A DNA stretch of 40,638 nucleotides. It comes from Calditrichia bacterium. Lineage in GTDB: Bacteria > Calditrichota > Calditrichia > JAJRVZ01. Location of the stretch: positions 1 to 40,638 of the forward strand of contig JAGLYF010000059.1 in the NCBI GenBank assembly GCA_023132435.1. Reading direction: 5' to 3'. Below the pieces are notes generated by a model. That model was not told where the DNA came from. It saw nothing but the letters and a program-made list of their open reading frames with translations, and did no database searches. Made by a program: the position numbers and the translations under genes. Shown here one piece after another: positions 1,699-21,500 of the stretch. The number at the start of each line of letters is the position of its first letter. Positions within the stretch are counted from its first letter, which is position 1.

Positions 1699-1720
1699 AC
1701 TATTAATTATTCGGGCGAAG

Positions 1721-1751: not shown

Positions 1752-1846
1752 GAATTATTGAACTCTATGTATGATTTTTTACTATATTCACCAGATCATT
1801 AAATACCGCTAAGTCTTCACTGGCAAATTCAATTTTCTTCACCGTA

Positions 1847-2632: not shown

Positions 2633-2695
2633 ATTATTGTATACTTTAACTTTTTAAATATATTCTGCAAAATATAGGTCACTGATTTCCTGAAA

Positions 2696-2822: not shown

Positions 2823-4953
2823 ATATCGGTATCGCTTCGGCCATATACTGCAATGAATGCAGGGTCAGGTTGCCGGACTGCAGATCGGGAAAGATCAGAA
2901 CATTGGCATTCGATTTTAAAGTGGAAAACGGGAAATAACTTTCGCGCAGCGCCAAATCGCGGGCAGCGAATAATTGCATTTCACCGTCGATTTCCAGATC
3001 AGGATAGCGTTTTTTCACCATTTCCGTGGCTAGGCGAACTTTGATCGTGTTAGGGTGATCCACGCTGCCAAAGTTGGAAAAAGACAGCATGGCCACGCGT
3101 GGTTCAAAACCCAGCGAACGGCATTTCATTGCAGCCAGAATGGCGATCTCGGCAAGATCTTCGGCGTCTGGATTAATATTTACGGTGCAATCAGCCAGTG
3201 AGACCACGTCTTTCGGCAGCAGAATAAGATAATAGCTGGAAATATGCCTGATATCCTGCGCAGTTCCTATAACCTCCAGAATCGTACGCAAACTTTGAAC
3301 ATAATGGGTAGAATAACCGGCAATCATCATATCGGCATGGCCCTTGTGCACCATCATAGCGGCATAATAATCCCGCTGGCTCATATGCTGAACGGCCGTG
3401 GCACGCATAACGCCGCGTCTTCGGCGCATGGCAAAATATTCGTCAACATATTCTTCAAAATACTGGCTGCGTGCTGGATCGATCAGGGTTACGCCGCTCA
3501 AATCCAGACCCAGCAGATCAATTTCACGGCGGATTTCTTCTTCGTTGCCTAACAAAATGGGTTTTGCGATACCTTCGTCTATTAAAATGCCCGATGCGCG
3601 CAGGATAGTTTCGTTGCTTCCTTCTGAAAAGACCACTCTAAGCGATTTTTGGCGCGCCCGCATAATTAATGAACGTAACGTTTCCCGTCCTGTGCCTAAA
3701 CGGACGGCCAAATTGTCTTCATATGCCTCACTCTCCATTTTAAGATTTGCCACCCCATCCTCTATGGCCTGACGGGCAACTGCAGCGGATTCCCTTACTA
3801 AAATGCGCGGATCAATCGCTTTAGGCAAAAGATATTCCGGGCCAAAGCTAAAGTGTCCGTGACCATATGCCCGTTCGACCTCCTCTACCAGTTCCTCCCG
3901 GGCCAAATCAGCCAGAGCACGGGCAGCAGCCAGCATCATGTTTTCCGTAATAGCTCCGGCTTGCACATCCAGTGCGCCGCGAAATATATAAGGAAAGCTT
4001 AGTATGTCCATAACCGCGTTAGGATATTGATCCAAACCAGTAGCTACTATTACATCCTGACGGCTGCCTTTAGCTTCCTCATAACCAATTTCCGGGTCGG
4101 GAGTAGCCAGGGCAAAAACGATAGGGTACCGGTTCATGGAACGAATCATTTTCAGGTTCAGAACCCCTCCTGCCGAAGCGCCGATAAAAACATCCGCGTC
4201 TTTTAAACCATCCGCTAAATTGTGGGCTTGCGATTCCCTGACAAAAGGCTGTTGGTAATCGTACAAATCGGTCCGTTGCGAATGCAGCAAACCATTTACG
4301 TCATAAATCAGGATATTTTCAGGATTGACGCCCAGGCGTTTAAACAGCCGCGCACATCCTAGGCCAACCGTTCCGGCCCCGCAAATAACCATACGGATTT
4401 CATCAAGCTTCTTTTCTACAAGATCCAGAGCGTTTAACAGAGCAGCGGCAGCGACTACAGCCGTGCTGTAAAGATTTTCATGGAATACCGGAATTTTAAG
4501 ATTTTCACGAAGACGGTCATAAATATACAGGCCCTCCGGCGCTTTAATATCTTTTAAATTGATTCCGCCAAAAGTAGGCTCCAGCATGATTACGGTTTCG
4601 ATAAAACGGTCGGGATCTGTCGTGTTCAGCTCAATGTCAAAAACGTCGATGTCGGCCAGGCGCTTAAACAGCACAGCCATTCCCTCCTGCATGGGCTTAG
4701 CTGCCGCCGGCCCTATATCTCCGAGGCCGGGGATTGCCGTGCCGTTGGTAATTACACCGACCAGGTTCCCTTTTGCTGTATATTGGAATACTTCTGTTTC
4801 TTTCTTCATAATTTCCCGGGAAGGATAAGAAGCGCCGGGTAAATAGGCCAGACGCATTTCTCTTGGCGTAAGACAGACTTTTGTAGCCTTAACCTCGATT
4901 TTACCCGGTTTGGGACTTTTATGGTATTTGAGTGAATCTTCCTGATTGATCAT
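2809..4953 (-). CDS. maeB: NADP-dependent malic enzyme fused to phosphotransacetylase-like domain (MaeB type)
   Basis: Malic enzyme decarboxylates malate to pyruvate in the cytoplasm with reduction of NAD(P). Residues about 15-410 form the malic enzyme part: TNGTAIPGLGDIGPAAAKPM, the helix HENLYSTAVVAAAALLNAL, and the dinucleotide-binding GAGTVGLGCARLF. Residues about 425-714 resemble phosphate acetyltransferase (RVVFSEGSNETILRAS...), a regulatory, usually non-catalytic domain in MaeB. Start ATG at 4953 has a GGGG-type ribosome site. The frame ends at 2809 with S-V-Q-C, about 40 residues short, because of a frameshift near 2820 (see 2696-2822). Whether this is a true mutation or a sequence error cannot be told here. 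The upstream neighbour on this strand is a PEP-synthase-like gene, which suggests a shared role around pyruvate/PEP. Confidence 0.92.
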   Translation of the reverse strand: MINQEDSLKYHKSPKPGKIEVKATKVCLTPREMRLAYLPGASYPSREIMKKETEVFQYTAKGNLVGVITNGTAIPGLGDIGPAAAKPMQEGMAVLFKRLADIDVFDIELNTTDPDRFIETVIMLEPTFGGINLKDIKAPEGLYIYDRLRENLKIPVFHENLYSTAVVAAAALLNALDLVEKKLDEIRMVICGAGTVGLGCARLFKRLGVNPENILIYDVNGLLHSQRTDLYDYQQPFVRESQAHNLADGLKDADVFIGASAGGVLNLKMIRSMNRYPIVFALATPDPEIGYEEAKGSRQDVIVATGLDQYPNAVMDILSFPYIFRGALDVQAGAITENMMLAAARALADLAREELVEEVERAYGHGHFSFGPEYLLPKAIDPRILVRESAAVARQAIEDGVANLKMESEAYEDNLAVRLGTGRETLRSLIMRARQKSLRVVFSEGSNETILRASGILIDEGIAKPILLGNEEEIRREIDLLGLDLSGVTLIDPARSQYFEEYVDEYFAMRRRRGVMRATAVQHMSQRDYYAAMMVHKGHADMMIAGYSTHYVQSLRTILEVIGTAQDIRHISSYYLILLPKDVVSLADCTVNINPDAEDLAEIAILAAMKCRSLGFEPRVAMLSFSNFGSVDHPNTIKVRLATEMVKKRYPDLEIDGEMQLFAARDLALRESYFPFSTLKSNANVLIFPDLQSGNLTLHSLQYMAEAIPISVQC

Positions 4954-5040
4954 GATTAACCCCGCTCGTTATTAAAAATCCGATCTCTGTTTTTCTAAAA
5001 TGAATTATATACCTTCTTAGAATTTTTAATCCAGGTGATA

Positions 5041-5160
5041 CTATCTCACTAAAACAATCTTTCTTACTTTATTATATTCACCGGCTTTTAATCTATACAA
5101 GTAAAGACCACTAGCTAGATTATTTGCGTTCCAAATATACTTGTATCGACCTGCTGCCAT
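5041..5160 (-). pseudogene. T9SS sorting-tail fragment overlapping the 3' end of the PEP-synthase-like gene
   Basis: On the minus strand one frame reads M-A-A-G-R-Y-K-Y-I-W-N-A-N-N, then L-A-S-G-L-Y-L-Y-R-L-K-A-G-E-Y, then N-K-V-R-K-I-V-L-V-R and TAG at 5041-5043. This is a near-perfect type IX tail (AGxYxhxWNAxxLASGhYhYRLxAGxxxxxxKhhLhR). A TAA lies directly upstream in this frame, so the breakpoint is close to 5160. The first 41 bases are used in another frame as the last codons of the 5120-10228 gene. The rest fills most of the gap to maeB. Confidence 0.85.
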
Positions 5161-8100
5161 TTATTCTTATTGGGAAGCGTTCCAAAGTTTCATTAAGTAC
5201 AGATAAGAATGAAGCTACCGGTCGTGCCTGTAAAAGCCATAAGCAGCTGTCTTCTATTCCGAATTCGATGTCCAACGGATAGCCGTAGGCTTTTTCCAGG
5301 GAAGCGGCAATCCTGACCAACTGACAGAGCTCCACATATTCCAGCGCAGGCCGCAATCGCTGATGATAAAGGGTTTGTGAACAAACGGTGCCGAATCCTG
5401 CGCGCCGGTTAAATACAATTTGTTCGGTTTTATCGCTGGTAATATAGCTGAAACGAAGCGCCTCTTTTTCAGAGTCGGTTTCCTTTGATACAGTAACCTG
5501 ATCCGCAGCGACTGTTCCGGAAACCACGCCTTCTCCAAGGCCTAACCCGGCGTTAATAACCATTTCTCTGAGATTACCCCTGGGGATATTAACCGTCTGC
5601 AAAACGCCGGATACCCGGGAATTGACCATGCGCTGCACAACCACGCCGCCGCCGGTCTGGGCGGCATCCCCGCCTAAAACGGTCCGGTTATGGATAGCAC
5701 GTTCGGTCCATAAACCGCTCCAGGTTCGTTTTAGATAATGGAGAAGCTGATCTTCACCGTGGATATATAAATAGGTCTCAAATTCACCCGCGCGGGCCGC
5801 TGCTTCGGTATCTTCTTCCTGTGAGGAAGAACGAATGGCTACATAGACCGGGTCGGAGTCCTGATTCATTCTTTCTTTTACAGACGAAACGCGGGTAATT
5901 TCCTGATAGGATTTAATAACCGCACGGCGCAGCTCATCCGGAAGTTGTATACGTTCCCAAAGACTGCTGATTTGCAGATATTTCTGCTGGTTATTCAAAT
6001 CATCCCGACGCAGAACGGAATTTATGGCTTTACGAAGAGAAGACCCCTGAGCAGCCCGGCGGCCCGCTCCCGCTTCCGTTCCGGTCACAGTTGTATCCAG
6101 CGCCTCCATGAAGGCTTTATTTGTAACCGCAAACCAGGGCGGAATCACATCGCCCCCGGCGAGACGCTCTATCTCTGCAAGATTGGCTGCTTTCCAGCCG
6201 ATCATCTGAAACAGTTCAAAACCGCCATCGCTGTGGTCAATTACATAACAATCGATAAGATTTTTTCTTGTTTCAGCATCTCTGTCAGCCATTTGCTTTT
6301 GCAGTTTGCTAATTGCAGAACTGGTTTTTCGATCTATGGTAAGAATCGTGTCTATGCGCTCCAGTTGGCGCAATAAGTGGCGCACATGGGGATCATCATC
6401 CCTTTTATTCGAAAGACGTTTAATTTCCCGGACCAGTTTTTTCCTTAAAACAGAGAGACGGCCTACTGCCAGCGATTCGAAATTATCCTTACCGAAATCT
6501 TCATCTGCGGGCTTTTTTATATCACATGCAACCAGAGCTGCTGCGGCGCTATCAACCGCTCGCTTATGGTGAATAGTATCCAGCCTTAAAGAAAGAACTT
6601 CGTAAGCACAATCGGAAGAAGGAATATCGCTTTCGGCTTTGTGAACGGTTTCCATAAAACTGCTTTTTAATTCAGCCATGATCACCATCAAATAATCCCG
6701 CGCATCGGTTGCCAAAGCAGGATTGTTAAAAAGAACCGTCAAAAGAATACCCTTATCCATGTGAATCATTCCTGTTTCAGCGGCAGGCTCATTTAGTAAG
6801 ATTTCAAATATGGCGTATCTTGCCGTTATGGGATCAGAGCAGCGGCGCAGGACATTTTCCAACTGATGCCGGGCGCGCAGCCGCTTGCCGCGCAGATTCA
6901 GGATTTCCCTTTCTTTCTTGACAGCAGCAAGCATCGCATTCGCGCCCCTGTATAAACGGAATCCTTCATGAAGAGCCCGGATGTCCCTTTCCTGACCAAG
7001 CACACGCATATTCCCGGCCAGGGCGTCTAAAATGAGCAGATCGTCTTCCCGCAGGGTGTATTCTTTCTCGTGAATATCGGTTCGGATACAAACGTTAAAA
7101 TCGTTTATCTTCTTCTGTAGTATCTTATATTCAAGCGATTTATAAATCAGAATTTTCTGATCGCCGGAATCGGTCCGCCACTTGCCCGAAATAATGAGCG
7201 CCGGTTTGTGGAACTGCATGGCAATAAGTCCGGCATGGCTCAGAATACCGCCGCCAGTGGAGACAATCCCGTCCGCGTAATAAAGGAAAGTTGTATCTTC
7301 AGGCCTTATGGATGCAGCTAACAATATTGATCCCGGGAAGTCCTGCGGATTACGCCCCTCCGTTCCGAAAAGAGCTTTGCCGACGGAACGACCCGGTGAG
7401 GCTTTCAACCCTGTTACAATACGCTCGCCGCGCAAAGGCGCTTTCTCCGGAGGCAGGATACTCTGTTTTATTTCGTTGAGAAATTGAGCGGCTTCCGCTT
7501 CGTCGTCAGTGCCGATTAGTTCGGGCAGGGTATCAACAAAATTGTTGGCGCGCAACAGGGCGGCAAGTTTGGATGCTTCATAACAAGCATTTGAAATCCA
7601 TGGTTTAGATTTATTTTTGCGTCGTTTATATACAACCTGGTCACGAATAAAAAAAGCAAGACGGATCATACCGTCTGCTCCTCGCAGCACGTAAAAACAT
7701 ATTTCTTCACCGCGCAGAGCAAGAACAGCGCTCTGAACGAGATAACCGTTAACGCTTCCGGTTGTATTGAAAGTTATACTTCGTTCCAGCGGTCGCACCA
7801 GACGTGCCATCCCAATGGCTGCGGCTATTTTGTCTGATCCGGCAGCTAATAGTTCGGCAAATAACTCGGCTTCATGTACGCGAAAAAAAAGATCGGAAGA
7901 CTGAGGTTTGAATCCTTCGTTTGTTTGAATAAGTTCACCGCGTGTAACGGACTGCCGGAGTGGATTAAGCGTCCCTTCTTCAAGATCCAACTGTCCGGGA
8001 TGTCTGTCAGCTTCCTTTGCGGCTGGTAGGGCAATATCGAGACCCGGTTCGCGGATTATGTTTATGAAATCTTCATAAAATCCGGCCGGGGGAAGACCTG

Positions 8101-10228
8101 TATAGATATCTTCATAATTGCCCTCGCCGGACCAGACTGTTTGCCGCCGCCCGGTTGGTTCATCCACAAAACCGGTCAGAATATTGCTGCGGTTTTTAGT
8201 CAGAATGTTTTTAAGCGGGAGGAAACCCCATCTTAGAAAAAAATCCGTCCAGGCTTCAGCTACTTTCCGACGCGCTTCGCTTTCGAGAGCCAGAGAGCCA
8301 ACTGTCCAGTCTAGATCCATAAAATAGGGAGCCATGCGGAATATATGGCGCGCTTTCCTGCACATGTCTCCCAGGTTGAGGGCGCGTTCCTTATCATAAC
8401 GGGCGTGAATCCGCGTTCCTTCAATCAGGATGTCGAATTCCATGCGCTCAAAAAAAGTTCGGATAGCATCCAGAGAAATATTAGGATGCTGGTCCAGTTC
8501 ATAATTGCTGACGCCAAAATATTCCAAATCAATCATGCCTCCGCGTAGAGACGGGGCAAAATCGATGCGTAAAAAAGCAGGATGGTTGCGGAATCCAAAG
8601 TAATAGTGAACTTCATTGCCATAGCAGAAAATATCAACATGGGGAAATTGCTCCTGGCCGTGCAGCATCTGCCGGGCAAAGCCGTCGATGAGCAGCTCCA
8701 CGGAAAAAGGGATCTGCGAAGCGGAAGATTGATCCTGCGGGGCCGGTTCGAAATCGGCATAACGAATTTTGTCCAGGACAAATTGAATGCCATCCTTAGT
8801 AGCAATAAGTATATCCACAGTGCGGTTTGGCGACCGGCCTTCTTCGAGCAGTCTGAAACCGAGGCTGAGACCCTGCTGGTGCAAATATCTCTTCAGACCG
8901 TGCAGGGTACGCACTTCGCCCAGAGAATGGGGATCTTCAAAGGACTGTACGAGCCGGGTTAAATCCGCCGAAAGCTGCGGCTGATCCGTATTTTCATCCA
9001 ACTCAGCAAAAATTCTATTTCTCATTTCCCGATATAGCCCGGGTAAAACGGCGCATTCGTCGCTAAAAGGCTTGAATAAAACCACGTAGTCTTCCACAAT
9101 TTGATCCATCCGGCCGATCATATCCCGGACTTTTTTCACGTTGAGCGGACCCACATTTAGAAAATCGCTCAGGAGGGCGGCATGATTTAAATTGTAGGAT
9201 CGAAAACGGGTGATGGGATCATTCTCGTCTTCTCTGCCGTGTTCTTCAGAAACCTGACCACCGCAAGCGACAATAAGAAATATTTCAGAAGACCGCCAGG
9301 CGCCCCTGCATTTTTCTAATAGAAACGATTCCGCTTCAGACACTATAAAGGGAGGCGAACCATCTATGGCAACGCCGATTAAGGTTTGTACTTCCAATCC
9401 CAGATTAAGGCGGCTCCAACCAATCTTTGCAGTAACATCATATAAAAGTTTTTCACCGATTATTTTTTCAGCACGGATAAAATCATTATGTAAAGACGAT
9501 AAAATACCCGGAACAGGCTGAAACCAGAGCAGATCCATATGGGTGGCGCGGGTGTATGCAAGATAGGGAACAAAAAACTTGTAATATTCTTTGCCCAGCA
9601 CGATTTCCGCCACATCAGGCGGAACGGCTTTTCCGGAGCTGTCTAAAAGCCGGGCAGCCAGCCGGCGCAGGTCCATATTATCTTCTTCCAGATACAGCGC
9701 CAGGAACGGGTCTTTATAGCGGAATCCCTCTCCCGGATCATAATGCTTGATAAGCGATTGGATATCAAGCATCGCCTCTGTTTCGGTAAAGGGTGTTCTT
9801 TCCATGTTCATCCGCCCGGCCAGGAATTGGATAAAGTCAAGGGTTACTTTTAGAATTCCTTTTTCAGCTAACCGAACGGCGTATTTGAGCGCGCGAAGGG
9901 CCAGATTTTTATCACGGGCGCTAAGCATCGTTTTTGTGAAAGGGAGTGGATCAGGGCCTTTCACTGCCGTTTCTTCCAGGAAAGTAAAAAGATGTTCGGC
10001 AATAGGGCCGGAGCGTTTTTGCAGCAGGGGGAATAGCGGCTCTAAATCGGAAATTGTTGATTTGGAAAGCGGTTCTTGGCAAAGCAGGCGAAGTTTATCA
10101 CAGTCTTTTTTTACCTGATCGGGGCGGGCCATTACGAGGTTGAACTGAGCAATTATGGACCTGATAAGGTGATTATTGGAATCGGTCATCTTTTCAGGCT
10201 GAATGGATTTTTGTTTTGTCTTTGCCAT
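5120..10228 (-). CDS. giant PEP-synthase-like protein: helical N-terminus, phosphohistidine swivel, ATP-grasp
   Basis: The C-terminal part, residues about 1340-1690, is the PEP/pyruvate-binding ATP-grasp domain of PEP synthase and PPDK: GWKAANLAEIERL, then AIRSSSQEEDTEAAARAGEFE, VVVQRMVNSRVSGV, GLGLGEGVVSG and LDIEFG...LWLLQARP. A PEP-utilising swivel motif lies earlier, at about residue 990 (GGGILSHAGLIAMQFHKPAL), with the phosphorylatable His. In classic PEP synthase the order is ATP-grasp, His, TIM barrel; here His comes first and no PEP-binding TIM barrel is seen. The first about 900 residues are helical and not recognised. ATG at 10228 has AGGTG upstream and is preferred to GTG at 10240. 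The last 13 codons come from an out-of-frame T9SS tail fragment. It may phosphorylate pyruvate or another acceptor; that is inference. Confidence 0.85.
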   Translation of the reverse strand: MAKTKQKSIQPEKMTDSNNHLIRSIIAQFNLVMARPDQVKKDCDKLRLLCQEPLSKSTISDLEPLFPLLQKRSGPIAEHLFTFLEETAVKGPDPLPFTKTMLSARDKNLALRALKYAVRLAEKGILKVTLDFIQFLAGRMNMERTPFTETEAMLDIQSLIKHYDPGEGFRYKDPFLALYLEEDNMDLRRLAARLLDSSGKAVPPDVAEIVLGKEYYKFFVPYLAYTRATHMDLLWFQPVPGILSSLHNDFIRAEKIIGEKLLYDVTAKIGWSRLNLGLEVQTLIGVAIDGSPPFIVSEAESFLLEKCRGAWRSSEIFLIVACGGQVSEEHGREDENDPITRFRSYNLNHAALLSDFLNVGPLNVKKVRDMIGRMDQIVEDYVVLFKPFSDECAVLPGLYREMRNRIFAELDENTDQPQLSADLTRLVQSFEDPHSLGEVRTLHGLKRYLHQQGLSLGFRLLEEGRSPNRTVDILIATKDGIQFVLDKIRYADFEPAPQDQSSASQIPFSVELLIDGFARQMLHGQEQFPHVDIFCYGNEVHYYFGFRNHPAFLRIDFAPSLRGGMIDLEYFGVSNYELDQHPNISLDAIRTFFERMEFDILIEGTRIHARYDKERALNLGDMCRKARHIFRMAPYFMDLDWTVGSLALESEARRKVAEAWTDFFLRWGFLPLKNILTKNRSNILTGFVDEPTGRRQTVWSGEGNYEDIYTGLPPAGFYEDFINIIREPGLDIALPAAKEADRHPGQLDLEEGTLNPLRQSVTRGELIQTNEGFKPQSSDLFFRVHEAELFAELLAAGSDKIAAAIGMARLVRPLERSITFNTTGSVNGYLVQSAVLALRGEEICFYVLRGADGMIRLAFFIRDQVVYKRRKNKSKPWISNACYEASKLAALLRANNFVDTLPELIGTDDEAEAAQFLNEIKQSILPPEKAPLRGERIVTGLKASPGRSVGKALFGTEGRNPQDFPGSILLAASIRPEDTTFLYYADGIVSTGGGILSHAGLIAMQFHKPALIISGKWRTDSGDQKILIYKSLEYKILQKKINDFNVCIRTDIHEKEYTLREDDLLILDALAGNMRVLGQERDIRALHEGFRLYRGANAMLAAVKKEREILNLRGKRLRARHQLENVLRRCSDPITARYAIFEILLNEPAAETGMIHMDKGILLTVLFNNPALATDARDYLMVIMAELKSSFMETVHKAESDIPSSDCAYEVLSLRLDTIHHKRAVDSAAAALVACDIKKPADEDFGKDNFESLAVGRLSVLRKKLVREIKRLSNKRDDDPHVRHLLRQLERIDTILTIDRKTSSAISKLQKQMADRDAETRKNLIDCYVIDHSDGGFELFQMIGWKAANLAEIERLAGGDVIPPWFAVTNKAFMEALDTTVTGTEAGAGRRAAQGSSLRKAINSVLRRDDLNNQQKYLQISSLWERIQLPDELRRAVIKSYQEITRVSSVKERMNQDSDPVYVAIRSSSQEEDTEAAARAGEFETYLYIHGEDQLLHYLKRTWSGLWTERAIHNRTVLGGDAAQTGGGVVVQRMVNSRVSGVLQTVNIPRGNLREMVINAGLGLGEGVVSGTVAADQVTVSKETDSEKEALRFSYITSDKTEQIVFNRRAGFGTVCSQTLYHQRLRPALEYVELCQLVRIAASLEKAYGYPLDIEFGIEDSCLWLLQARPVASFLSVLNETLERFPIRINGSRSIQVYLERK

Positions 10229-12384: not shown

Positions 12385-12822
12385 ATGCTTTCTAAAAAAT
12401 CAAAATATGCTATTATTGCTTTAATTCATTTGGCAAAACGTTATGGTGATGGACCGATCATGATCGGCAGGATCGCAGAGGATGAAAATATACCTAAAAA
12501 ATTTTTAGAAGGTATTTTGTATGAATTAAAAAACTCTGGTATTGTCAATAGTCACCGGGGTAGAAGTGGTGGATATTATTTGATTAAAAAACCGCAGGAA
12601 GTGTATCTGGCCCAAATCATGCGTCTGTTCGACGGGCCTATCGCCCTTATACCGTGTGTTACCTATCAGTATTATGAACCCTGTCCCGAATGCAAGGATG
12701 AAAAAACCTGTTCCATTCGCCATGTTTTTAAAGAGGTCAGGGATGCAACCGTTGAAATTCTAAAAAAGGCTACATTAGCTGAAATGATACGTATTGAGGA
12801 AAAACTCATAAAACAACTTTAG
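12385..12822 (+). CDS. Rrf2-family transcriptional regulator (CymR/IscR-like)
   Basis: The 145-aa length and the opening MLSKKSKYAIIALIHLAKRY are typical of Rrf2 proteins. The winged helix-turn-helix covers residues about 1-80 (IAEDENIPKKFLEGILYELKNSGIVNSHRGRSGGYYL). A cysteine cluster follows, C-V-T...C-P-E-C...C-S-I-R, at about 91-113. It may bind an Fe-S cluster as in IscR, or be only a variant of that loop as in CymR. The gene is the first of a likely operon with the barrel and TauE/SafE genes (40-base gap). With those transporters, a role in sulfur supply control is reasonable but inferred. No clear ribosome site precedes the ATG. Confidence 0.9.
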   Translation: MLSKKSKYAIIALIHLAKRYGDGPIMIGRIAEDENIPKKFLEGILYELKNSGIVNSHRGRSGGYYLIKKPQEVYLAQIMRLFDGPIALIPCVTYQYYEPCPECKDEKTCSIRHVFKEVRDATVEILKKATLAEMIRIEEKLIKQL

Positions 12823-12862
12823 TTTTTTTTATTTTAAACTATACTAAATAGATAGACTAAAT

Positions 12863-14173
12863 ATGTATAATATGGATTTAAAAATTTTACAAATCCTGGT
12901 AATTATAATTTTATTGAATGTATTCTACTGCAATAACAAGGTATTTGCACAGTTTTCCATGAGTGCAGAAGTCCGGCCTCGTTTTGAGTGCCGAAACGGA
13001 TACGGTAAACTGCCCACTATAAATGATAAACCCGCTTATTTTATCAGCCAAAGATCTCGTTTTAATCTTCATTACAAAAATTCAAAGGTTAGGTATGCGC
13101 TGGCCCTGCAGGATGTGCGGGTCTGGGGAGATGACACCATATATAAAGCCACCGGTGTGCATGGCAGCGAAGCAAGTATAGATCTGCACCAGGCTTATTT
13201 TGAGTGGCTGTTCAGTAAAAAAAGCTCGTTCCGCATCGGCAGGCAGGTATTTGCCTATGATGATGAACGTTTACTCAGCACACGTAACTGGAACCAACAC
13301 GGTATTGCCTACAACGCCCTGCTTCTGAAAACACAACTGGAAGAATGGAATGTACATCTGGGATTATCTTTGAACAACAAAAAGGAAAACAAATTTGGTA
13401 ATTATTACGAACAAGAAAAGATGAAGACTCTTAATTTCTTGCATCTAAGACGATCCATCAAAGATATCGGTTATTTCTCATTAGTGGCTATTGCTACCGG
13501 TTATACGGCTTCGGACAGCAGTGAGGTCATTTATATGCGGGGAACTATTGGAGGATATCTATTTCTAAATACACCTCCATTCAACTATTCACTTTCCGGC
13601 TATTTTCAATTCGGAAAGAATAAATACAGCATACCGGTTCAGGCATATTTATGGACTTCCGGTATACAGTGGGAAAGTAAACAGTTAACTGCCCGTGCAG
13701 GTATAGATTATATATCAGGTAATGCGGAATGTCGCAGTGGAAATATTAACAGGCAGTTCGATCTGTTATATGGATCCAGACACCGCTATTACGGAACGAT
13801 GGATTATTTTAGTGATTTTTCCAAAGCAACTAATTCCCGCGGTCTGACCGATGTCTGGTTAAGCACCTCCTATGAAGTACTGTTCAATACCAGTATTCGG
13901 GCGGATTTTCACCGTTTCACACTTCAGGATAATAGATCAATTATTAAAAGTATCGCTGATGGCAGTAATATTTTCGGTAATTATATGGGAACTGAGCTGG
14001 ATTTCACCATAGAGCATAAATTACTCCCATGTTTAAGACTATACGCCGGTTACTCGTTTTTTAATCCTTCCGATTATATGCGTACAATGCAATCTGTAAG
14101 ACTTTCAGATCGAATGCCTCAGTGGGCCTGGATGATGTTAGATTTCAGGCTAACACTTTTTGAAACAGATTAA
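12863..14173 (+). CDS. outer-membrane beta-barrel, alginate-export-like
   Basis: A hydrophobic N-terminus (LKILQILVIIILLNVFYC...VFAQ) looks like a signal peptide, with cleavage after A-Q. The rest alternates aromatic and polar residues, as in beta strands, and has the alginate-export type pattern: EVRPRFECRNGY, SQRSRFNLHY, ALQDVRVWGDD and FRIGRQVFAYDDERLLSTRNWNQHG. The last residue region (WAWMMLDFRLTLFETD) is an outer-membrane closing strand with acid end. It is expected to sit in the outer membrane as a solute channel. It follows the Rrf2 gene by 40 bases and precedes a TauE/SafE gene, so it may be the outer-membrane entry or exit for the same anion. The start may be the ATG at 12863 or 12872. 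Confidence 0.8.
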   Translation: MYNMDLKILQILVIIILLNVFYCNNKVFAQFSMSAEVRPRFECRNGYGKLPTINDKPAYFISQRSRFNLHYKNSKVRYALALQDVRVWGDDTIYKATGVHGSEASIDLHQAYFEWLFSKKSSFRIGRQVFAYDDERLLSTRNWNQHGIAYNALLLKTQLEEWNVHLGLSLNNKKENKFGNYYEQEKMKTLNFLHLRRSIKDIGYFSLVAIATGYTASDSSEVIYMRGTIGGYLFLNTPPFNYSLSGYFQFGKNKYSIPVQAYLWTSGIQWESKQLTARAGIDYISGNAECRSGNINRQFDLLYGSRHRYYGTMDYFSDFSKATNSRGLTDVWLSTSYEVLFNTSIRADFHRFTLQDNRSIIKSIADGSNIFGNYMGTELDFTIEHKLLPCLRLYAGYSFFNPSDYMRTMQSVRLSDRMPQWAWMMLDFRLTLFETD

Positions 14174-14218
14174 GGTGTTTTCTTTGGCAAATAAAACATT
14201 TCAAAAGGGAGTAAAATC

Positions 14219-15049
14219 ATGGAAATAACAGTCGGATTATTCTTAGTGCTTTTTATGATGGCCTTCGCCTGTGAATTTATCGACTCGTCTATGGGTATGG
14301 GTTATGGGACTATATTGGCCCCAACATTGATCATTATGGGTTTCGATCCTTTAGTTGTGGTACCCTCTATTTTGCTTTCACAAGCTTTTGGCGGTTTAAC
14401 GGCCTCTGTATTTCACCATCAATTCAGGAACGTATCTTTTAGTCGTACATCGAAAGATTTTAAAGCTTTTTTGTATATAAGCGGATTTGGTATTGTAGCT
14501 ACAATTTTTGCGGCTTTACTGTCAATAAACTTGCCCAAAATCGTCTTGAAAACTTATATCGGAGTGCTTGTTTTAACAATGGGTATAATCATATTGCGGA
14601 ATTATGCTTTCAATTTTTCCTGGAAAAGAATGATCGGGATAGGGATTTTAAGCGGCTTTAATAAAGGTATGTCCGGAGGCGGTTTCGGTCCGGTAGTAAC
14701 CGGAGGACAGATTTTATCCGGGCAAAGTCATAAAAACGCCATTGGCGTAACCACATTGGCAGAAGCGCCTATTTGTCTTGTTGGCTTTGTTACATTTATC
14801 ATTGGCCGTACCGTATTGGAATTAAACGGCCGGGTTTTAAGTATGCCCTTTGCCGATTTTATGGATCACCTCTTTGCCCCGCACATGCTCTGCTGGGAGT
14901 TATTATTAGCCTTATTGTTAGGTTCTGTATTTGTAACCCCGTTTGGAGCTTTTACGACGCGAATTATTAATCAGAAAATCATGCACTTTCTGGTTGGCGG
15001 CCTGATTACCCTTTTAGGAATCTGGACGCTTGTTAAAACATGGATGTGA
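14219..15049 (+). CDS. TauE/SafE (TSUP) family permease
   Basis: This 276-aa protein has about eight hydrophobic segments and both family repeats: ACEFIDSSMGMGYGTILAPTLI near the N-terminus, and GILSGFNKGMSGGGFGPVVTGG in the middle. Members move sulfite, sulfoacetate, taurine-derived sulfonates or similar across the inner membrane. GGGAG sits just before the ATG. It is the third gene after Rrf2 and the barrel, and the divergent SLC13 permease adds to the case for an anion or sulfur cassette. Direction of transport is not shown by the sequence. Confidence 0.88.
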   Translation: MEITVGLFLVLFMMAFACEFIDSSMGMGYGTILAPTLIIMGFDPLVVVPSILLSQAFGGLTASVFHHQFRNVSFSRTSKDFKAFLYISGFGIVATIFAALLSINLPKIVLKTYIGVLVLTMGIIILRNYAFNFSWKRMIGIGILSGFNKGMSGGGFGPVVTGGQILSGQSHKNAIGVTTLAEAPICLVGFVTFIIGRTVLELNGRVLSMPFADFMDHLFAPHMLCWELLLALLLGSVFVTPFGAFTTRIINQKIMHFLVGGLITLLGIWTLVKTWM

Positions 15050-15116
15050 TAATACCTTTAAGTGTAAAATTTTAAGCAGACAGAAAACTATGCAATGGCC
15101 ACGCCTGTCAAACCCC

Positions 15117-16085
15117 TCATATCTGTTCGACCTGTTCCTCCAAGGCCGCTCGTATAGGCATGTATGAAAGACCGAGCTCCCTCGTAGCCTTGCTTCCGTC
15201 TACCTGCAATCCATGCTTCATTAAACGCATCTGATCCACTGACATATCGAGGATTGGCGGTTTCTTCACAAGATTGGCAAGTCCTGTTAGAAGATGTGCC
15301 CCGAGAATGGTGAGTGAATCCGGCAGCACGAGTTTCGGTAACTTTGTACCGGAGATATCTGAAAGCGTCCGGTTTATGTCGCCGAACGTCATGTTTTCGG
15401 AAACGATCATATACTTCTCGCCAATGTTATCCTCCTTCTCAAGAGCCTTGACTATGGCCTCCGCCACATCTCGCACGTGTACAAACGGGAATGTGCTGCC
15501 TGTGAGAACCTGAGCCGGCATCTTTCCACGAATCACGTTCCTTATGTATCGTCCGGCAGTTTTTGGATCATCTGGCCCCAGAACTGCCCCAGGATAGATC
15601 ACGACCAGCGGAAGTTTTTCCTTTTCGTATAGCTCCCAAGCGATGAGGTCACCTGCGCGTTTCGTCTGTGCGTATTCAGTAAAACACTTTGTTCCCATCT
15701 CACTGGCTTCAGTGACTGGCCACTCTGCATTGCCATAAACCGCTGCGGTGCTCACATGCACAATCTTCGAAATCCCAGTCTCGATGGCAGCTTCCATCAC
15801 ATTCCTCGTCCCGTTGATGTTCACATCGTGATATATGCGCCGGTTCGGGGTCCAGAACTCGTAGAAGTTTGCAAGATTGACAACCCACTCGCAGCCCCTC
15901 ATTCGGCTCAAAAGAGATTGCTTGTCCGTGACATCTCCACGAATCACAATGGCACCGGCCTCTTCCAGTTTTCCGACTTGACTTGTCACTCTGGCAAGGC
16001 AATAGAGTTCATACTGAGTCTCTTTCAAGCGTCTGATGAGATGTGTACCAATGAAACCTGTTCCCCCTGTAACAAAGATCTTCAT
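15117..16085 (-). CDS. NAD(P)-dependent epimerase/dehydratase (extended SDR)
   Basis: The protein opens with the Rossmann signature MKIFVTGGTGFIGTHLIRRL and has the catalytic tyrosine-lysine pair YAQTKRAGD (about residue 143), with STAAVYG before it. The 322-aa length and the late PFVHVRDVAEAIVKAL region fit nucleotide-sugar or HpnA/dihydroflavonol-type reductases. ATG at 16085 is chosen because AAAGGTGG lies upstream and the Rossmann loop starts there; an earlier ATG at 16127 adds 14 unneeded residues. Its codons are GC-richer than those of its neighbours, a possible sign of transfer. It is divergent from the MarR gene. The substrate is unknown. Confidence 0.88.
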   Translation of the reverse strand: MKIFVTGGTGFIGTHLIRRLKETQYELYCLARVTSQVGKLEEAGAIVIRGDVTDKQSLLSRMRGCEWVVNLANFYEFWTPNRRIYHDVNINGTRNVMEAAIETGISKIVHVSTAAVYGNAEWPVTEASEMGTKCFTEYAQTKRAGDLIAWELYEKEKLPLVVIYPGAVLGPDDPKTAGRYIRNVIRGKMPAQVLTGSTFPFVHVRDVAEAIVKALEKEDNIGEKYMIVSENMTFGDINRTLSDISGTKLPKLVLPDSLTILGAHLLTGLANLVKKPPILDMSVDQMRLMKHGLQVDGSKATRELGLSYMPIRAALEEQVEQI

Positions 16086-16207
16086 TATTACCACCTTTCG
16101 CCTGTTGAGGTGTATCTCCTGTTTCATATGCTTCTAGCGGATTAATGGCAATTTAATAAATTGTGATGCGATTTTGAAGTAATTTATTCTACGTAATCAT
16201 ATAAAAT

Positions 16208-16224
16208 ATTTAGATTTTCTAAAT
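16208..16224. promoter_or_regulatory. perfect 7-3-7 palindrome upstream of marR-like gene
   Basis: ATTTAGA-TTT-TCTAAAT lies about 70 bases before the MarR ATG in the divergent gap. Such short inverted repeats are typical MarR operators. Confidence 0.5.
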
Positions 16225-16242
16225 AACTATTGATATATACTA

Positions 16243-16252
16243 CGATATTCGT
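16243..16252 (+). promoter_or_regulatory. shared motif CGATATTCGT, copy 1 (MarR promoter)
   Basis: CGATATTCGT occurs here, about 40 bases before the MarR ATG, and again exactly at 16817-16826 before the barrel/RND genes. Both lie inside TATA-rich sequence. A shared site of this kind suggests that MarR controls both transcripts. Confidence 0.5.
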
Positions 16253-16293
16253 TATATTCGAAATAGGTAATAAAAATAGGTATATAAAATATT

Positions 16294-16758
16294 ATGAATG
16301 AAGATATACTTTCAAAGCAGATTGAAGCAGTAAACAAAGCATTCCACCAGATCTGGTTTGCAATAATGTTTAACCGACCCGATTATAAATCGGAAAATAT
16401 TCAAAAACTGTCATTTATAGAAATGCATCTTATTGGAATGGCTTATAAACACCCTGATATGATCCTTAAAGAAATTCGTGAATACTTGCGCATTCCACAA
16501 ACAACGCTCAGTAGTATTATTGCAAAACTGGAGAAGCAGGGAATTTTGCGTCGGGTAATTAATCATCGTGATATGCGTTCTTTTTCCCTGGAGGTAACCG
16601 ATGTCGGCAGGAAAATCCGGGATACACACAAAGAACACGATTTAAAACAAGCGAAGGAGTTAATTTTAGCTCTGGATGAAAATGAAAGGGATGAATTCAT
16701 CCGTATGTTCCAGAAAGTATCAAATAAAATGAGCCGGACACAAATTTCTGATGGATAG
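16294..16758 (+). CDS. MarR-family transcriptional regulator
   Basis: At 154 aa it has the MarR length and layout: a helical dimerisation start (QIEAVNKAFHQIWFAIMF), a winged helix with EIREYLRIPQTTLSSIIAKLEKQGILRR, the wing INHRDMRSFSLEVTDVG, and a C-terminal helix. Family members bind palindromes near their own gene and an efflux operon, and often release DNA on binding a phenolic or lipophilic ligand. Here the downstream genes are a barrel, an RND exporter and a LolA-like protein. Only weak ribosome site sequence precedes the ATG. Confidence 0.9.
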   Translation: MNEDILSKQIEAVNKAFHQIWFAIMFNRPDYKSENIQKLSFIEMHLIGMAYKHPDMILKEIREYLRIPQTTLSSIIAKLEKQGILRRVINHRDMRSFSLEVTDVGRKIRDTHKEHDLKQAKELILALDENERDEFIRMFQKVSNKMSRTQISDG

Positions 16759-16816
16759 TAAAAAACTCAGTTTTGTAAAAATTAACATAAGGGCATTTTT
16801 TTTGAAACATATATAC

Positions 16817-16826
16817 CGATATTCGT
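16817..16826 (+). promoter_or_regulatory. shared motif CGATATTCGT, copy 2 (barrel/RND promoter)
   Basis: This second exact copy lies in ATATACCGATATTCGTATAT, a partial palindrome, about 170 bases before the barrel gene. The 233-base gap 16759-16991 also has a possible short leader frame (see rejected list) and no other gene. Confidence 0.5.
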
Positions 16827-16991
16827 ATATAATGAATGACGATATAAATCATTAAAGTGTAAAAAAAGGTTATGAAAACATTTTTTTTAGATAATTATAG
16901 CGAGTATCGCACATCACTAAATATGTATAATAATAATTATACAATTAACCGAATTTGGTTATGAAAAATTTAATCATGATTCGGAGAAAAA

Positions 16992-18302
16992 ATGCTTAAT
17001 AAATTAATTCTAATTTTACTTTTAACCACTTTTAGTTTGCCGGCACAAAGCCTTTTTGACGATGCCTTGCAGGAAGATTCCTCTTCCTCAACCGCACTCA
17101 ATTATGAATTGAACGGATATGTTCGGGGCGACATTTATGTGGGTCCTGTTCCGGAAAAATCCGGGTACGAAACCAAAGACAGGTATGGAGAAGCGGTTTT
17201 TAAACTTCGCCTGCGCAAAGGTCAGTGGGGAGATGCCTATAGCGAATTGCGATTTCGCAACAACAACGATGAAAGCTCGACTTCCACTTTCATCCTGCGC
17301 GAAGCCTACGTAAACGCTTATACGGGACCTTTTGATATGCGCATCGGGCAGCAGGTGGTACAGTGGGGTAAGGCGGATGGATATAATCCAACCAATGTAA
17401 TCACACCAATAAATTTGCTTATTTTTTCCCCTGATGAAGATGACCGCCGGATTAGCAATATTCTAATCCGTTCCTATTATAACTGGTCTGAATTTCGTCT
17501 GGAAGCCATCTGGATTCCGGTTTACGAACCATCGGTATTGCCCTTCACGAACGTCCAATTGCCGGATGGCATTCAACGCGGCGAAGCGGATTATCCTAAT
17601 GAAGAAATTAAACATAGTTCCCTTGCCCTGAAGTTGCACTTTGAAGGGACCTCCGTCGACGGTTCTCTTTCATATTATAACGGGTTTCTGCCCATGCCCG
17701 GCCTTTCAGCCTTTACGGAAAATAACAATCTGAATATTTATCCATCTGCTTACCGTGTACAAATGGTGGGCGCTGATTTTTCAACTACAATCGGGGCTTT
17801 CGGATTACGTGGAGAATTTGCTTACAGAAAACCGGATAAAAAGGAGAATACCTGGCAATCCATTCCCCACAGGCAGGTCGAGTATATTTTAGGGCTGGAT
17901 CGCGAGTGTGGTAATTTCAGTCTGATTGTTCAATACATCGGTAAACATGTTTTCGAATATAAGGATCTTCCTCAAATCCGGCAAAGCAGGCCGGAATTCA
18001 TCAAATATAAAATCGCCCTTTGGAACCGGATGCTTTCCGGTCAGCTGAAAGAATGGAGCAACGCCATTTCTTTTCGCCCTGCCTTAAAATGTTTTCACGA
18101 AACACTTGAACTGGAACTGTTGGGACTAATCAACTTCAGTACAAAAGAAATCTTCATCAAACCAAAAATCAGTTATGATTTCGCGGATGATCTACGAGTC
18201 ACCGCCGGAGCTCAGATTTATCACGGGCTGGAGGACACACTTTTCGGCATGCTGGATGAATACAGAAGCGCAGGATTTGTCGAATTGAGAGCATCATTTT
18301 AG
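16992..18302 (+). CDS. outer-membrane beta-barrel protein (DUF1302-like)
   Basis: A short signal peptide (MLNKLILILLLTTFSLPAQS) is followed by a 436-aa barrel-like sequence with regular strands and a C-terminal FVELRASF ending in Phe. Features like LNGYVRGDIYVG, LRFRNNNDESSTSTFILREAYVN, FDMRIGQQVVQWGKADGYNP and SNILIRSYYNWSEFRLEAIWIPVY match DUF1302-type outer-membrane proteins that travel with RND exporters and LolA-like proteins. GGAG lies before ATG. The RND gene starts 9 bases after its stop, so the two are co-translated. Function: probably the outer-membrane channel or lipid/solute receptor of the exporter; inferred from context. Confidence 0.82.
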   Translation: MLNKLILILLLTTFSLPAQSLFDDALQEDSSSSTALNYELNGYVRGDIYVGPVPEKSGYETKDRYGEAVFKLRLRKGQWGDAYSELRFRNNNDESSTSTFILREAYVNAYTGPFDMRIGQQVVQWGKADGYNPTNVITPINLLIFSPDEDDRRISNILIRSYYNWSEFRLEAIWIPVYEPSVLPFTNVQLPDGIQRGEADYPNEEIKHSSLALKLHFEGTSVDGSLSYYNGFLPMPGLSAFTENNNLNIYPSAYRVQMVGADFSTTIGAFGLRGEFAYRKPDKKENTWQSIPHRQVEYILGLDRECGNFSLIVQYIGKHVFEYKDLPQIRQSRPEFIKYKIALWNRMLSGQLKEWSNAISFRPALKCFHETLELELLGLINFSTKEIFIKPKISYDFADDLRVTAGAQIYHGLEDTLFGMLDEYRSAGFVELRASF

Positions 18303-18311
18303 GAGTTAATA

Positions 18312-20600
18312 ATGGATATGAATAATTTATCAGAGAAAATAATCAAATTTCGCTGGCTGATTATAGCCGGTTTTGTCCTGATAACCGTTTTGCCGGCCAG
18401 CCAGATACCTAAAGCCCGGATGAATCCGGATATGTTGACCTACTTGCCGGAGAAAATGGATTCCCGGCTGAATAAAAGTCGCATTGAAGAACTATTCGGC
18501 GGCTCAGAGATGATAATGGTTCTGGTAAAATCGGATGATGTGCTTAAATCGGAAACTCTTAAACGTATCAAAAAAATGTCCCGCCAGATGAAACGGATCA
18601 AAGGGATTGATAAAGTGATGTCCCTGTTTGAGCTGAAGCATATCAAAAGCGAAGATGGAGCAATAATTGTCAATCCGGCTGTCAAACGGATTACCGGGAA
18701 TGATGTTGACTGCATGATTTTACGTGATGAAATTCGTGAAAACGATATGGTTTATGGCAATGTGGTATCCAAAGATTTTCAGGTTACGGCGGTTATAGGC
18801 ATGGTGGAAACAGGTACATCGGATGAAATTTTGTTAGCTGAAATTGAAAAGCTCATTCAGAATAATCCTGGTGATGAAGAAGTCCTTATCGGCGGAACAC
18901 CCTATTCACGTTATAACACCGGCCACAATACAAAAAAAGATTTAGGTCTGTTACTACCGCTGGGCCTGCTAATCATGCTGGTGTTTCTGTATATCTGCTT
19001 CAAACAGTTGCGTGGTGTTTTTCTGCCATTTTTAGTCGTACTAATGTCGATTCTTTTTTCAATGGGATTGATCCCTTTACTTGGTTGGGAATTAACGGTA
19101 ATAACAATAATTCTGCCGGTTATATTAATTGCCGTTGCTAACGATTACGGCATCCACATGATCGCCAAATATCAGGAAGATAATATTCCAGGCAATACTT
19201 TTAATAAAAAAGAATTGGCCAAACGCATGTTTCGCAGCCTTGGGCTACCCATCTTACTTACCGGAATAACCACCATGGTTGGAATGCTGTGTTTGCAGGG
19301 CCATATTATGATTCCTGCCGGGCAGTTGGGTATTTTGGCTGCAGCGGGTATTTTATTTGCCCTGGCCGCCAGTCTGTTTTTTATTCCTGCCGTGATCTCA
19401 TTGCTTCCTAAAACCAAACCGGTTATTTTGACTGATTCCACCGGCCGTAAAAAGCCTGTATTGGAACGTATACTTGCTTTGTTTGGAAATCTTGTAACGG
19501 ATCGGCCTAAAACAGTGATTCTATGCGCTCTGCTTTTTTGCACCCTCACCTCAGTCGGGATATTTTCCGTTTCTGTGAATACTGATCCGATTAATTACTA
19601 TGAAAATGATCATCCGGTGGCCGTTTCAGCAAATCTGATCAACAAGAAACTTGGTGGATTTTTTCCGGTGTCTGTTGTTTTTAAAGGCGATATCAAAAAT
19701 CCGGCTATTCTGAAAAAAATAGACCAATTGGGAAAAGAAATCGGCGCATATCCAGAAGTAGATAATACCATTTCAATTGCTCGTGTTGTAAGGCAAATGA
19801 GTCGTGTGCTCAATGATAAAGACGAAGCAGGATATGATGCTATCCCTGAAACCCGCAATGCTATCGCACAGTACTTTGAACTATACAATATGAGCGGCGA
19901 TCCGGATGATTTTGAAAAAATGGTCGATTTTACCTATGAACACGCCATCATCACTGCCCGAATTAACACTTCCAGCACACCCGTACTGAGGCGGGTTGTC
20001 GACCGAATAAGAGATAGAATAGAGAATGATCCCGATATTTATATGGTGGGCGGTATCGCTGATGTTTTTTCGGACCTCTCAGCCAAAGTAGTCAGCGGAC
20101 AGTTTATCTCACTTGCTCTGGCTTTGGTTGTGGTTACCTTGCTTTTGATGGTTCTGTTCCGCTCTTTTTCTGCAGGAATCATTACTGCCATTCCATTGGT
20201 GCTCTCTATGGTCATTCTTTTTGGTTTGATGGGCTTGCTGAATATCGAACTTAATGTGGTTACTGCCTTGTTATCATCCATTATGATTGGGGTAGGCATC
20301 GACTATACTATTCATTTCCTGTGGCGTTATAAAGAAGAACTCCATAACGAATTGTCATATTCAGAAGCCGCTAAACATACGCTGCTGAGTACAGGCCGGG
20401 GTATCATGTTTAATGCTTTTTCGGTAATCATCGGTTTTGTTGTGCTGTTAATGTCCAGTTTTGTGCCGGTCCGTTTTTTCGGCTTTCTGGTAGTAGTTTC
20501 CATTTTTGCCTGTCTGATCGGCGCGCTGGTAGTCATCCCGGCTCTGGTTATCGTTTTAAAACCAAAATTCCTTGAACCCAAAGCAGCAAAAGTTCTATGA
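18312..20600 (+). CDS. RND-superfamily exporter, MMPL/HAE3-like
   Basis: The 762-aa protein has the two-fold RND layout: an N-terminal membrane helix (about 10-30), a periplasmic loop, a helix cluster (about 210-360) with a VILIAVANDYGIHMIAKY segment, a second loop, and a second cluster (about 600-745) with IMIGVGIDYTIHFLWRYKEE. The Asp in NDYG/GIDYT is the usual proton-relay site. Such proteins export lipids, hydrophobic compounds or biosynthetic products across the inner membrane using the proton gradient. GGAG precedes ATG and the gene is coupled to the barrel gene. Substrate is not identifiable. Confidence 0.9.
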   Translation: MDMNNLSEKIIKFRWLIIAGFVLITVLPASQIPKARMNPDMLTYLPEKMDSRLNKSRIEELFGGSEMIMVLVKSDDVLKSETLKRIKKMSRQMKRIKGIDKVMSLFELKHIKSEDGAIIVNPAVKRITGNDVDCMILRDEIRENDMVYGNVVSKDFQVTAVIGMVETGTSDEILLAEIEKLIQNNPGDEEVLIGGTPYSRYNTGHNTKKDLGLLLPLGLLIMLVFLYICFKQLRGVFLPFLVVLMSILFSMGLIPLLGWELTVITIILPVILIAVANDYGIHMIAKYQEDNIPGNTFNKKELAKRMFRSLGLPILLTGITTMVGMLCLQGHIMIPAGQLGILAAAGILFALAASLFFIPAVISLLPKTKPVILTDSTGRKKPVLERILALFGNLVTDRPKTVILCALLFCTLTSVGIFSVSVNTDPINYYENDHPVAVSANLINKKLGGFFPVSVVFKGDIKNPAILKKIDQLGKEIGAYPEVDNTISIARVVRQMSRVLNDKDEAGYDAIPETRNAIAQYFELYNMSGDPDDFEKMVDFTYEHAIITARINTSSTPVLRRVVDRIRDRIENDPDIYMVGGIADVFSDLSAKVVSGQFISLALALVVVTLLLMVLFRSFSAGIITAIPLVLSMVILFGLMGLLNIELNVVTALLSSIMIGVGIDYTIHFLWRYKEELHNELSYSEAAKHTLLSTGRGIMFNAFSVIIGFVVLLMSSFVPVRFFGFLVVVSIFACLIGALVVIPALVIVLKPKFLEPKAAKVL

Positions 20601-20620: not shown

Positions 20621-20670
20621 AACCACAGAGACCTCAGAAAAACACTCCGTGTACTCTGTGGTTATTTTTT
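20621..20670 (+). terminator. AACCACAGAG hairpin with T-run after the RND gene
   Basis: Arms AACCACAGAG (20621-20630) and CTCTGTGGTT (20654-20663) flank 23 bases and are followed by TTATTTTTTA. It looks like an intrinsic terminator but is also one of the genome's CCACAGAG repeats (see 24904-25000). It would separate the LolA-like gene from the RND operon, or reduce its level. Confidence 0.55.
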
Positions 20671-20702
20671 ACACATACCTTATGTTTCAAAGGAGCAATA
20701 TC

Positions 20703-21500
20703 ATGAAAACCAAAATATATGCAGTCATTCTATCACTCGTTTTTTCTGTTGTAGCATTACGTGCCCAATCGCAATTGACCGGCCAGCAGATTCAGGAAAA
20801 ATCCATTGAAGCCACACGGGTCGCCGGGGTTGAAGCGGTTGCCACCATGACTATCATTGATAGAAAAGGTCGTCAACGTGTACGCAAACTGGCCCAAATA
20901 TCCAAATTATATGACAACGGTAAAACCGAAAAGAAACTGATCCGCTTTCTGGCCCCGGCCGATGTGAAAGGCACCGGTTTCCTGACCTTCGATTACCGTG
21001 AAAATGATGACGATAAATGGCTTTATATGCCGGCTCTGAGAAAGACTCGGCGTATTGTCAGCTCAGAGAATGCTAAAAGTTTTATGGGCTCAGAATTTTC
21101 CTATGCCGATATGACGCCACCGACCGTTGAAGACTTTACATATAAGATTTTAGGTGAAGAAGAAATTAATGGCGTCCTGTGTTGGAAAATAGAAATCACC
21201 CCAAAAGATGATGATATTGCCGATGAAAATGGTTTCTCAAAAAAAATATCTTATATCGGGAAGCAGAATTATGTGATCCGCAAAGTGGTATATTTTGACC
21301 TCGATGAGGAACTGCATAAAGAGTTTACCGTCTATGAAATAAAAGAACTGGACATCCAAAACCGTAAGTACCGTTTGATGCACATTGAAATGGAAAATAA
21401 ACAGAGTGACCGGAAATCTATTATGAAAGTGGAAAAAATAAAGTTTAAACCGAATGTAAAAGATGAGTATTTCACTACACGGTACCTCGAGCGTGAATAA
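20703..21500 (+). CDS. LolA-like outer-membrane lipoprotein-sorting protein
   Basis: A signal peptide (MKTKIYAVILSLVFSVVALRAQ) leads into the LolA-like fold of this RND-linked family: VATMTIIDRKGRQRVRKLAQ, KLIRFLAPADVKGTGFLTFDY, DDKWLYMPALRKTRRIVSSENAKSFMGSEFSYADM, and ILGEEEINGVLCWKIEITPK. Family members act in the periplasm and carry lipid or lipoprotein from the exporter to the outer membrane. ATG at 20703 is preferred over an earlier frame start because AGGAG lies just before it and the signal peptide begins there. A terminator-like hairpin lies between this gene and the RND gene. Confidence 0.88.
   Translation: MKTKIYAVILSLVFSVVALRAQSQLTGQQIQEKSIEATRVAGVEAVATMTIIDRKGRQRVRKLAQISKLYDNGKTEKKLIRFLAPADVKGTGFLTFDYRENDDDKWLYMPALRKTRRIVSSENAKSFMGSEFSYADMTPPTVEDFTYKILGEEEINGVLCWKIEITPKDDDIADENGFSKKISYIGKQNYVIRKVVYFDLDEELHKEFTVYEIKELDIQNRKYRLMHIEMENKQSDRKSIMKVEKIKFKPNVKDEYFTTRYLERE

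Follow-up and report, generated by a model that had tools for sequence, protein, structure and literature searches.

The window analyzed here, a 40,638-nt stretch of DNA from a Calditrichia bacterium, carries the decamer CGATATTCGT on the + strand at 16243-16252 and 16817-16826, and the question is whether the two copies mark the operators of one local repressor. The initial annotation had reported exact matches at 16243 and 16817, upstream of a MarR gene and a barrel gene, respectively, and had proposed a small regulon that includes an envelope-export set. The window sequence confirms both copies and their positions: the first precedes marR (16294-16758, + strand), and the second precedes the barrel gene (16992-18302, + strand). 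The marR product, a 154-amino-acid (aa) regulator assigned to its family by Pfam, is the predicted binding protein for both sites. A third exact copy, at 27580, lies within an 822-aa open reading frame (ORF).

The first copy lies in a promoter-like setting. A phylogenetic footprint and a scan of the own genome delimit a proposed MarR operator, site 1 (TACTACGATATTCGTTATA, 16238-16256), and its core ACGATATTCGT (16242-16252) encloses the first decamer. A -35-like hexamer, TTGATA (16230-16235, + strand), was found by promoter scan and in the alignment with homologues, and a -10-like hexamer, TATATT (16253-16258, + strand), by promoter scan; they are separated by a 17-nt spacer and reach 10 of 12 matches, a level at which the scan found 5 sites where 5.7 were expected. 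Site 1 sits exactly in this -35/-10 spacer, and the -10-like hexamer overlaps the operator edge. Judged from the sequence, the predicted operator unit is the palindrome ACGAnnnTCGT between the -35 and -10 elements instead of the decamer. MarR-family regulators generally act on a small palindrome that overlaps the regulator's own promoter, with the target genes adjoining. The window locus appears to follow this picture, as both the sequence and the footprint place a palindromic putative operator over the promoter of marR itself, and the element at 16243 is predicted to be an autoregulatory MarR operator. The perfect inverted repeat ATTTAGA-TTT-TCTAAAT, which the initial annotation had pointed out nearby, is present at 16208-16224. 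However, an inverted repeat with 7-bp arms (loop of 0 to 8 nt) arises in 966 of 2,000 shuffles of the first intergenic stretch, so this palindrome stands at chance level, is unremarkable, and finds no support as a regulatory element.

Eight promoters of marR homologues outside the window were compared: L080 and L105 from the Desulfobacteraceae metagenome-assembled genome (MAG) G074, L107 from G076, L106 from G067, L112 from G202, L113 from G150, L114 from G430, and L115 from G457. Two of the genes are broken, that of L080 by a frameshift and that of L107 by truncation. The pattern TTG-N9/11-ACGAnnnTCGTTAT occurs with at most two mismatches within 200 nt upstream of seven of the eight homologues, in its N11 form at L114 and in its N9 form at the others that match; the most distant homologue, L115 (37% identical), departs from the full pattern at four positions. 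The 385 distinct control upstream regions, taken from 44 loci, all have at least three mismatches, so that none attains the level of the seven homologues. The contrast is smaller for the bare core, which is found with at most one mismatch at seven of eight homologues and in 18 of the 385 controls. Mean pairwise identities were calculated over seven aligned homologue promoters, leaving out the window and L115. The half-sites ACGA and TCGT are 71% and 86% identical, respectively, in contrast to 37% for the three central bases between them; the -35 block (63%), the left spacer (74%), and the -10 block (77%) are conserved as well, and the flanks score 26% far upstream and 48% after the -10 block. 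A TTG stands at the -35 place in all seven, that of L114 being 2 nt further off, and L106 has the perfect palindrome TATAACGACAGTCGTTATA. Six of the seven promoters come from one bacterial class and are not independent, so common descent explains part of this conservation. The sequence of site 1, its position, and its conservation are observed directly. The initial annotation had named a decamer that is not kept near orthologues as a ground against its proposal; the exact decamer is indeed not kept there, only the half-sites are, and these follow marR rather than the barrel and pump genes.

These comparisons bear on two other accounts of site 1. The shared decamer might be a chance similarity in A+T-rich DNA, and as a bare word it is indeed weak evidence. 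Some exact 10-mer is common to both A+T-rich intergenic stretches in 763 of 2,000 dinucleotide shuffles, one copy in the window lies within an ORF, and the 3.70-Mb own genome holds 14 exact copies, compared to 4 of the reversed control. The initial annotation had counted a decamer common in the genome as an argument against its proposal, and three of the 14 copies stem from one repeat. In a crude ORF call (ORFs of at least 80 aa), nine of the 14 fall within ORFs and five outside them; the repeat, on contig 141 (around TCATTCGATATTCGTTAT), carries one copy inside an ORF and two outside, at positions 1570, 3403, and 4255 of locus L116, within 2.7 kb, and thereby inflates the genome count. Since nine copies fall in ORFs and three in one repeat, the decamer was discarded as a genome-wide motif of a large regulon. 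On the other hand, the shuffles drop to 12 of 2,000 when the common 10-mer must contain at least four G/C bases, as the decamer does, and the footprint at the marR homologues has no counterpart among the control regions. The genome scan, the promoter alignment, and the control regions largely refute chance for site 1, and we give this account almost no credence. The decisive support for an operator is comparative, rather than a shuffle count. The conserved block might also be a mere σ70 promoter that was kept by common descent and holds no operator, in keeping with the conservation of the -35, the -10, and the left spacer. A plain promoter spacer, however, would hardly show conserved half-sites around a variable center, and both half-sites are conserved here while the bases between them are not, which makes a promoter alone very unlikely.

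The preferred reading of site 1 as a MarR operator was followed into eight genomes, in which TTG-N9-ACGAnnnTCGTTAT was scanned with up to two mismatches against a reversed control. The totals amount to 37 versus 27 in the own genome and 28 versus 22 in G202, and lie below the control in the other six genomes. Because totals at this level resemble the control, only matches with no or one mismatch are interpreted. Among the matches listed, the marR promoter is the sole perfect one in the own genome, and a single other place, on contig C260, has one mismatch. G074 has two listed matches with one mismatch, at its intact marR promoter (contig C22) and at C33:4411, which is position 4411 of L080, before an orthologous barrel/RND operon; the promoter of its frameshifted marR copy (C33:4009) has two mismatches. 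For G150 and G202, the single listed match with one mismatch is the marR promoter in each case. The marR site of G430 has the N11 spacing and is missed by the N9 pattern, and the one-mismatch match of this genome (C39) lies elsewhere; the matches listed include none from G067 and G076. The 19-bp palindrome TATAACGAnnnTCGTTATA, allowing up to three mismatches, stays below the control in all six genomes scanned. In the own genome, site 1 (two mismatches) ties with three places among the matches listed, which for this palindrome include none from G067. As a separate observation, G037 carries an identical promoter-like 26-mer, TTGACAGTTATACCGATACTCATTAT, on contigs 51, 261, 278, 389, 401, 448, and 474, and a one-base variant on contig 197; this is perhaps a repeated element.

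The MarR protein exceeds the Pfam cut-offs for MarR (PF01047; 35.3 bits, cut-off of 24.6) and PF12802 (33.8 bits, cut-off of 27), and thus has the winged-helix MarR domain in common with known autoregulated local repressors of the family. Its best NCBIfam matches, BilQ (39.8 bits) and FabT (37.4 bits), remain far under their cut-offs of 125 and 200, and its best solved-structure match is the FabT-type 6jbx, making it only a distant relative of any named regulator. As a literal word, the operator pattern gave no match in a literature search. The segment PQTTLSSI[IV][AG]KLEK, presumably the DNA-reading helix, is common to six of the seven MarR proteins aligned (the window protein included, the broken genes of L080 and L107 left out) and differs in L115. 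Homologues of marR are rare. Nineteen of 60 relatives, the own genome included, match at an E value of ≤0.001, the best match besides the own gene being 30% identical (E value, 5.8e-10). Among the 30 genomes or records behind the pump cassettes described below, five have matches; three are strong (G067, G074, and G076), and G075, G080, and further places in G074 and G076 give weaker ones. Within the class of G074, 6 of 389 genomes have a homologue at an E value of ≤1e-12, and these include G074 and G076. In G067's phylum, to which three KSB1 MAGs of the sample belong, 1 of 82 genomes has one, namely, G067 itself. For the phylum that contains the Prolixibacteraceae MAG G071, the count at an E value of ≤1e-12 was 0 of 395, in a search without a positive control. 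G074's order has homologues in 5 of 389, all found in earlier searches, and no plasmid-borne homologues were found. Elsewhere, marR homologues precede a PEMT/ICMT-like methyltransferase (L105 and L114), a molybdopterin oxidoreductase (L105), a ferredoxin (L107), or a PQQ-type propeller protein (L106), and with such varied neighbors, this MarR group is not restricted to pumps. The L105 neighborhood spans 5951-9503, and L112 looks similar to L105, L107, and L114 by eye. In G150 (L113), RND and LolA genes immediately precede marR, and an ORF that is transposase-like by eye stands in front of the remaining part of the RND gene.

The second copy of the decamer belongs to site 2 (16802-16833, + strand), a second proposed promoter/operator that was delimited by the exact decamer, repeat D4, and the analogous site of L080. 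It comprises TTGAAA (16802-16807), the core CCGATATTCGT (16816-16826) with the decamer, and one of two -10-like options, TATATA (16826-16831) or TATAAT (16828-16833). It departs from the pattern in its spacing, in a CCGA half-site, and in its right arm, and the promoter scan called no promoter there. On sequence grounds, site 2 must be regarded as much weaker evidence than site 1, because it has four mismatches to the N11 pattern, a level that 52 of the 385 control regions reach or beat. Less surely than for site 1, we predict it to be a divergent second operator copy that controls the barrel-RND-LolA operon.

Repeats within the locus hint at the origin of site 2. A seven-codon ORF, MNDDINH* (16832-16855, + strand), resembles the start of MarR, MNEDILS (repeat D3, 90% over 20 nt), and repeats D3 and D4 together give site 2 the appearance of a marR promoter and gene start with 36 nt missing. 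The ORF is possibly what remains of a duplicated 5' end of marR. A two-segment chain, devised after the repeats were seen, scores 20 compared to at most 17 in shuffles (0 of 1,000 as good); gapped alignments were not significant, with 989 of 2,000 shuffles as good in a permissive form and 171 of 2,000 in a stricter one. Among the loci searched, L080 has a 38-codon marR-like stretch after its site and before the barrel gene (39% identity; E value, 5.8e-6), which suggests that the operator was captured via a decayed marR copy. For L080 it is equally possible that a complete marR once stood in the operon and decayed in place. L082 likewise retains a shortened marR-like N terminus in translation, next to a decayed site, ACTAAGATCGG. 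These remnants could also mean that MarR binds site 1 only and that site 2 is a nonbinding leftover of the duplicated marR promoter, with the pump operon outside the regulon. The likeness to a shortened promoter with its start codon, the deviating spacing and right arm, and the marR-like remnants ahead of this operon in both L080 and L082, with the site of L082 decayed, all fit this account. However, the decamer at site 2 is perfect, -35- and -10-like hexamers remain, and the operon site in L080 equals the intact marR promoter of G074, with one mismatch each. We therefore regard a nonbinding leftover as improbable.

The genes behind site 2, here read as a second operator, form a three-gene set on the + strand. 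The first encodes a DUF1302-like outer membrane beta-barrel (436 aa), with a PF06980 match of 39.3 bits (cut-off of 23.2) that covers residues 81-142 only. It is followed by an HAE3-like MMPL/RND transporter (18312-20600; 762 aa; Pfam MMPL, 183.1 bits), whose best NCBIfam match, TIGR00921 (HAE3), reaches 292 bits, below the cut-off of 351.9. The last encodes a LolA-like periplasmic lipoprotein-sorting protein (20649-21500; 283 aa; LolA_like PF17131, 202.5 bits), which also matches DUF1329 (PF07044; 29.6 bits, cut-off of 23.1). The next ORF lies on the other strand and is of the Tricorn type. Upstream of marR, the gene list and Pfam place an epimerase-type gene on the opposite strand (15117-16127), and the interval that it mostly fills, 15001-16000, has a GC content of 0.495, compared to 0.397 and 0.314 in its neighbors. 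Just upstream, 12385-15049 holds a parallel set of an Rrf2-type regulator, an Alginate_exp-type barrel, and a TauE/SafE exporter.

The three-gene set resembles AmeABCD, the monoterpene efflux system that serves monoterpene tolerance in Castellaniella defragrans, in which a DUF1302 outer membrane protein, a LolA/DUF1329 periplasmic protein, and an HAE3 RND pump are encoded together (PMC6394551). The DUF1302 barrel and the LolA/DUF1329 component are both present in the window above the Pfam cut-offs. By gene layout, however, the three do not include a fourth, AmeC-like gene, and the window set is thus likened to AmeABCD and not classed as one. The LolA-like gene comes last in the window, whereas the pump comes last in AmeABCD (PMC6394551). 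The word "regulator" does not occur in the main text on AmeABCD (PMC6394551), whereas the window set has marR upstream. By analogy, the window set probably exports hydrophobic compounds.

The operon was followed through 31 loci, 29 from the genome collection plus a Haliovirga plasmid and G037. By tblastn, marR was found in only one of them, L080, as the frameshifted gene. A scan covered the 700 nt ahead of the barrel gene in 26 of the 31, leaving out L064, L065, L066, L075, and L076, in which the barrel is incomplete or at a contig end. Five of the 26 (L068, L080, L081, L085, and L092) have a core with no more than one mismatch, and L080 is the sole one with a core in a noncoding promoter context. 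The exact cores of L068 and L092 fall within other ORFs (136-1107 on the - strand and 173-1378, respectively), although that of L092 also fits the N11 pattern at one mismatch, and the matches in L085 lie inside an ORF (4265-5368); these were set aside as chance, and the L081 match, which has no promoter context, was not retained. Comparing the promoters of orthologous cassettes, as the initial annotation had suggested, thus yields support from L080 and none from the other 25 of 26 loci, and L080 is the one other operon that links the operator to the pump outside the window. In G067, marR has its perfect site, yet the 700 nt next to the barrel gene of this genome's cassette, L072, contain no core at one mismatch or fewer. 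Together with the sites in the window and L080, this indicates that the operator goes with marR and extends to the pump operon where marR adjoins it.

Other regulators occur at the remaining loci. A TetR gene lies between the barrel and RND genes in nine of the 31 (L067 to L070, L072 to L074, L076, and L079); the window has none there and has marR upstream instead. All nine have the orthologous barrel and RND genes, as in the window, and LolA was found in six (L067, L070, L072, L073, L074, and L076). The contigs of L069 and L079 break off in or close to the RND gene, and in L068 no LolA was found though the contig continues for 2 kb. The eight TetR cassettes scanned (all but L076) yielded no promoter-context site ahead of the barrel gene. 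In L086 an AraC-type gene stands upstream, and in L077 a TetR and an AraC-type gene do. The TetR gene inside nine of 31 loci suggests that the regulator has been exchanged. In the closest relative of the cassette, L065 (RND, 88%), a 798-aa ORF that is TonB-dependent-receptor-like by eye (1210-3606) lies between barrel and RND. Plasmid NZ_AP027060.1 of Haliovirga abyssi (Fusobacteriota; L063) carries a barrel-RND-LolA set with a 47% identical RND protein, possibly a sign of horizontal spread.

With the decamer at the marR promoter and before the pump set, the repressor probably controls both. We infer that a MarR dimer would bind ACGAnnnTCGT in the -35/-10 spacer of its own promoter and repress marR by keeping RNA polymerase off. 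At the divergent site 2 in the barrel-RND-LolA promoter, the same MarR may hold the export set off, until a ligand, probably a hydrophobic compound handled by the pump, would free MarR and turn both promoters on. We consider this model, with an operator at site 1 and the same repressor controlling itself and, through site 2, the pump, to be probable. It keeps the regulon of the initial annotation, which is backed by the homologue footprints and by one Desulfobacteraceae genome that repeats the two-promoter pattern, and amends it in that the palindrome is the unit and site 2 carries much less weight than site 1. This kind of control is ordinary, the known local autoregulation of MarR proteins, plus a possible exchange of regulators.

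For a MarR group that falls under every NCBIfam cut-off, the locus offers a concrete predicted operator, ACGAnnnTCGT between -35 and -10, and a link to a DUF1302/HAE3/LolA-like export set that many MAGs carry. More tentatively, and with more doubt than confidence, the operon may have changed masters: it has its own TetR in at least nine of the 31 loci, and marR could have landed beside it here and, separately, in Desulfobacteraceae. In both lineages it would have been partly duplicated, leaving a decayed copy, made up of promoter-operator and initial codons, to act today as the promoter of the operon. If such operator capture took place, the MNDDINH* ORF and the 38-codon marR-like stretch of L080 would be its scars, and if the regulator was exchanged in this manner, the locus would show how a pump operon comes under a new repressor.
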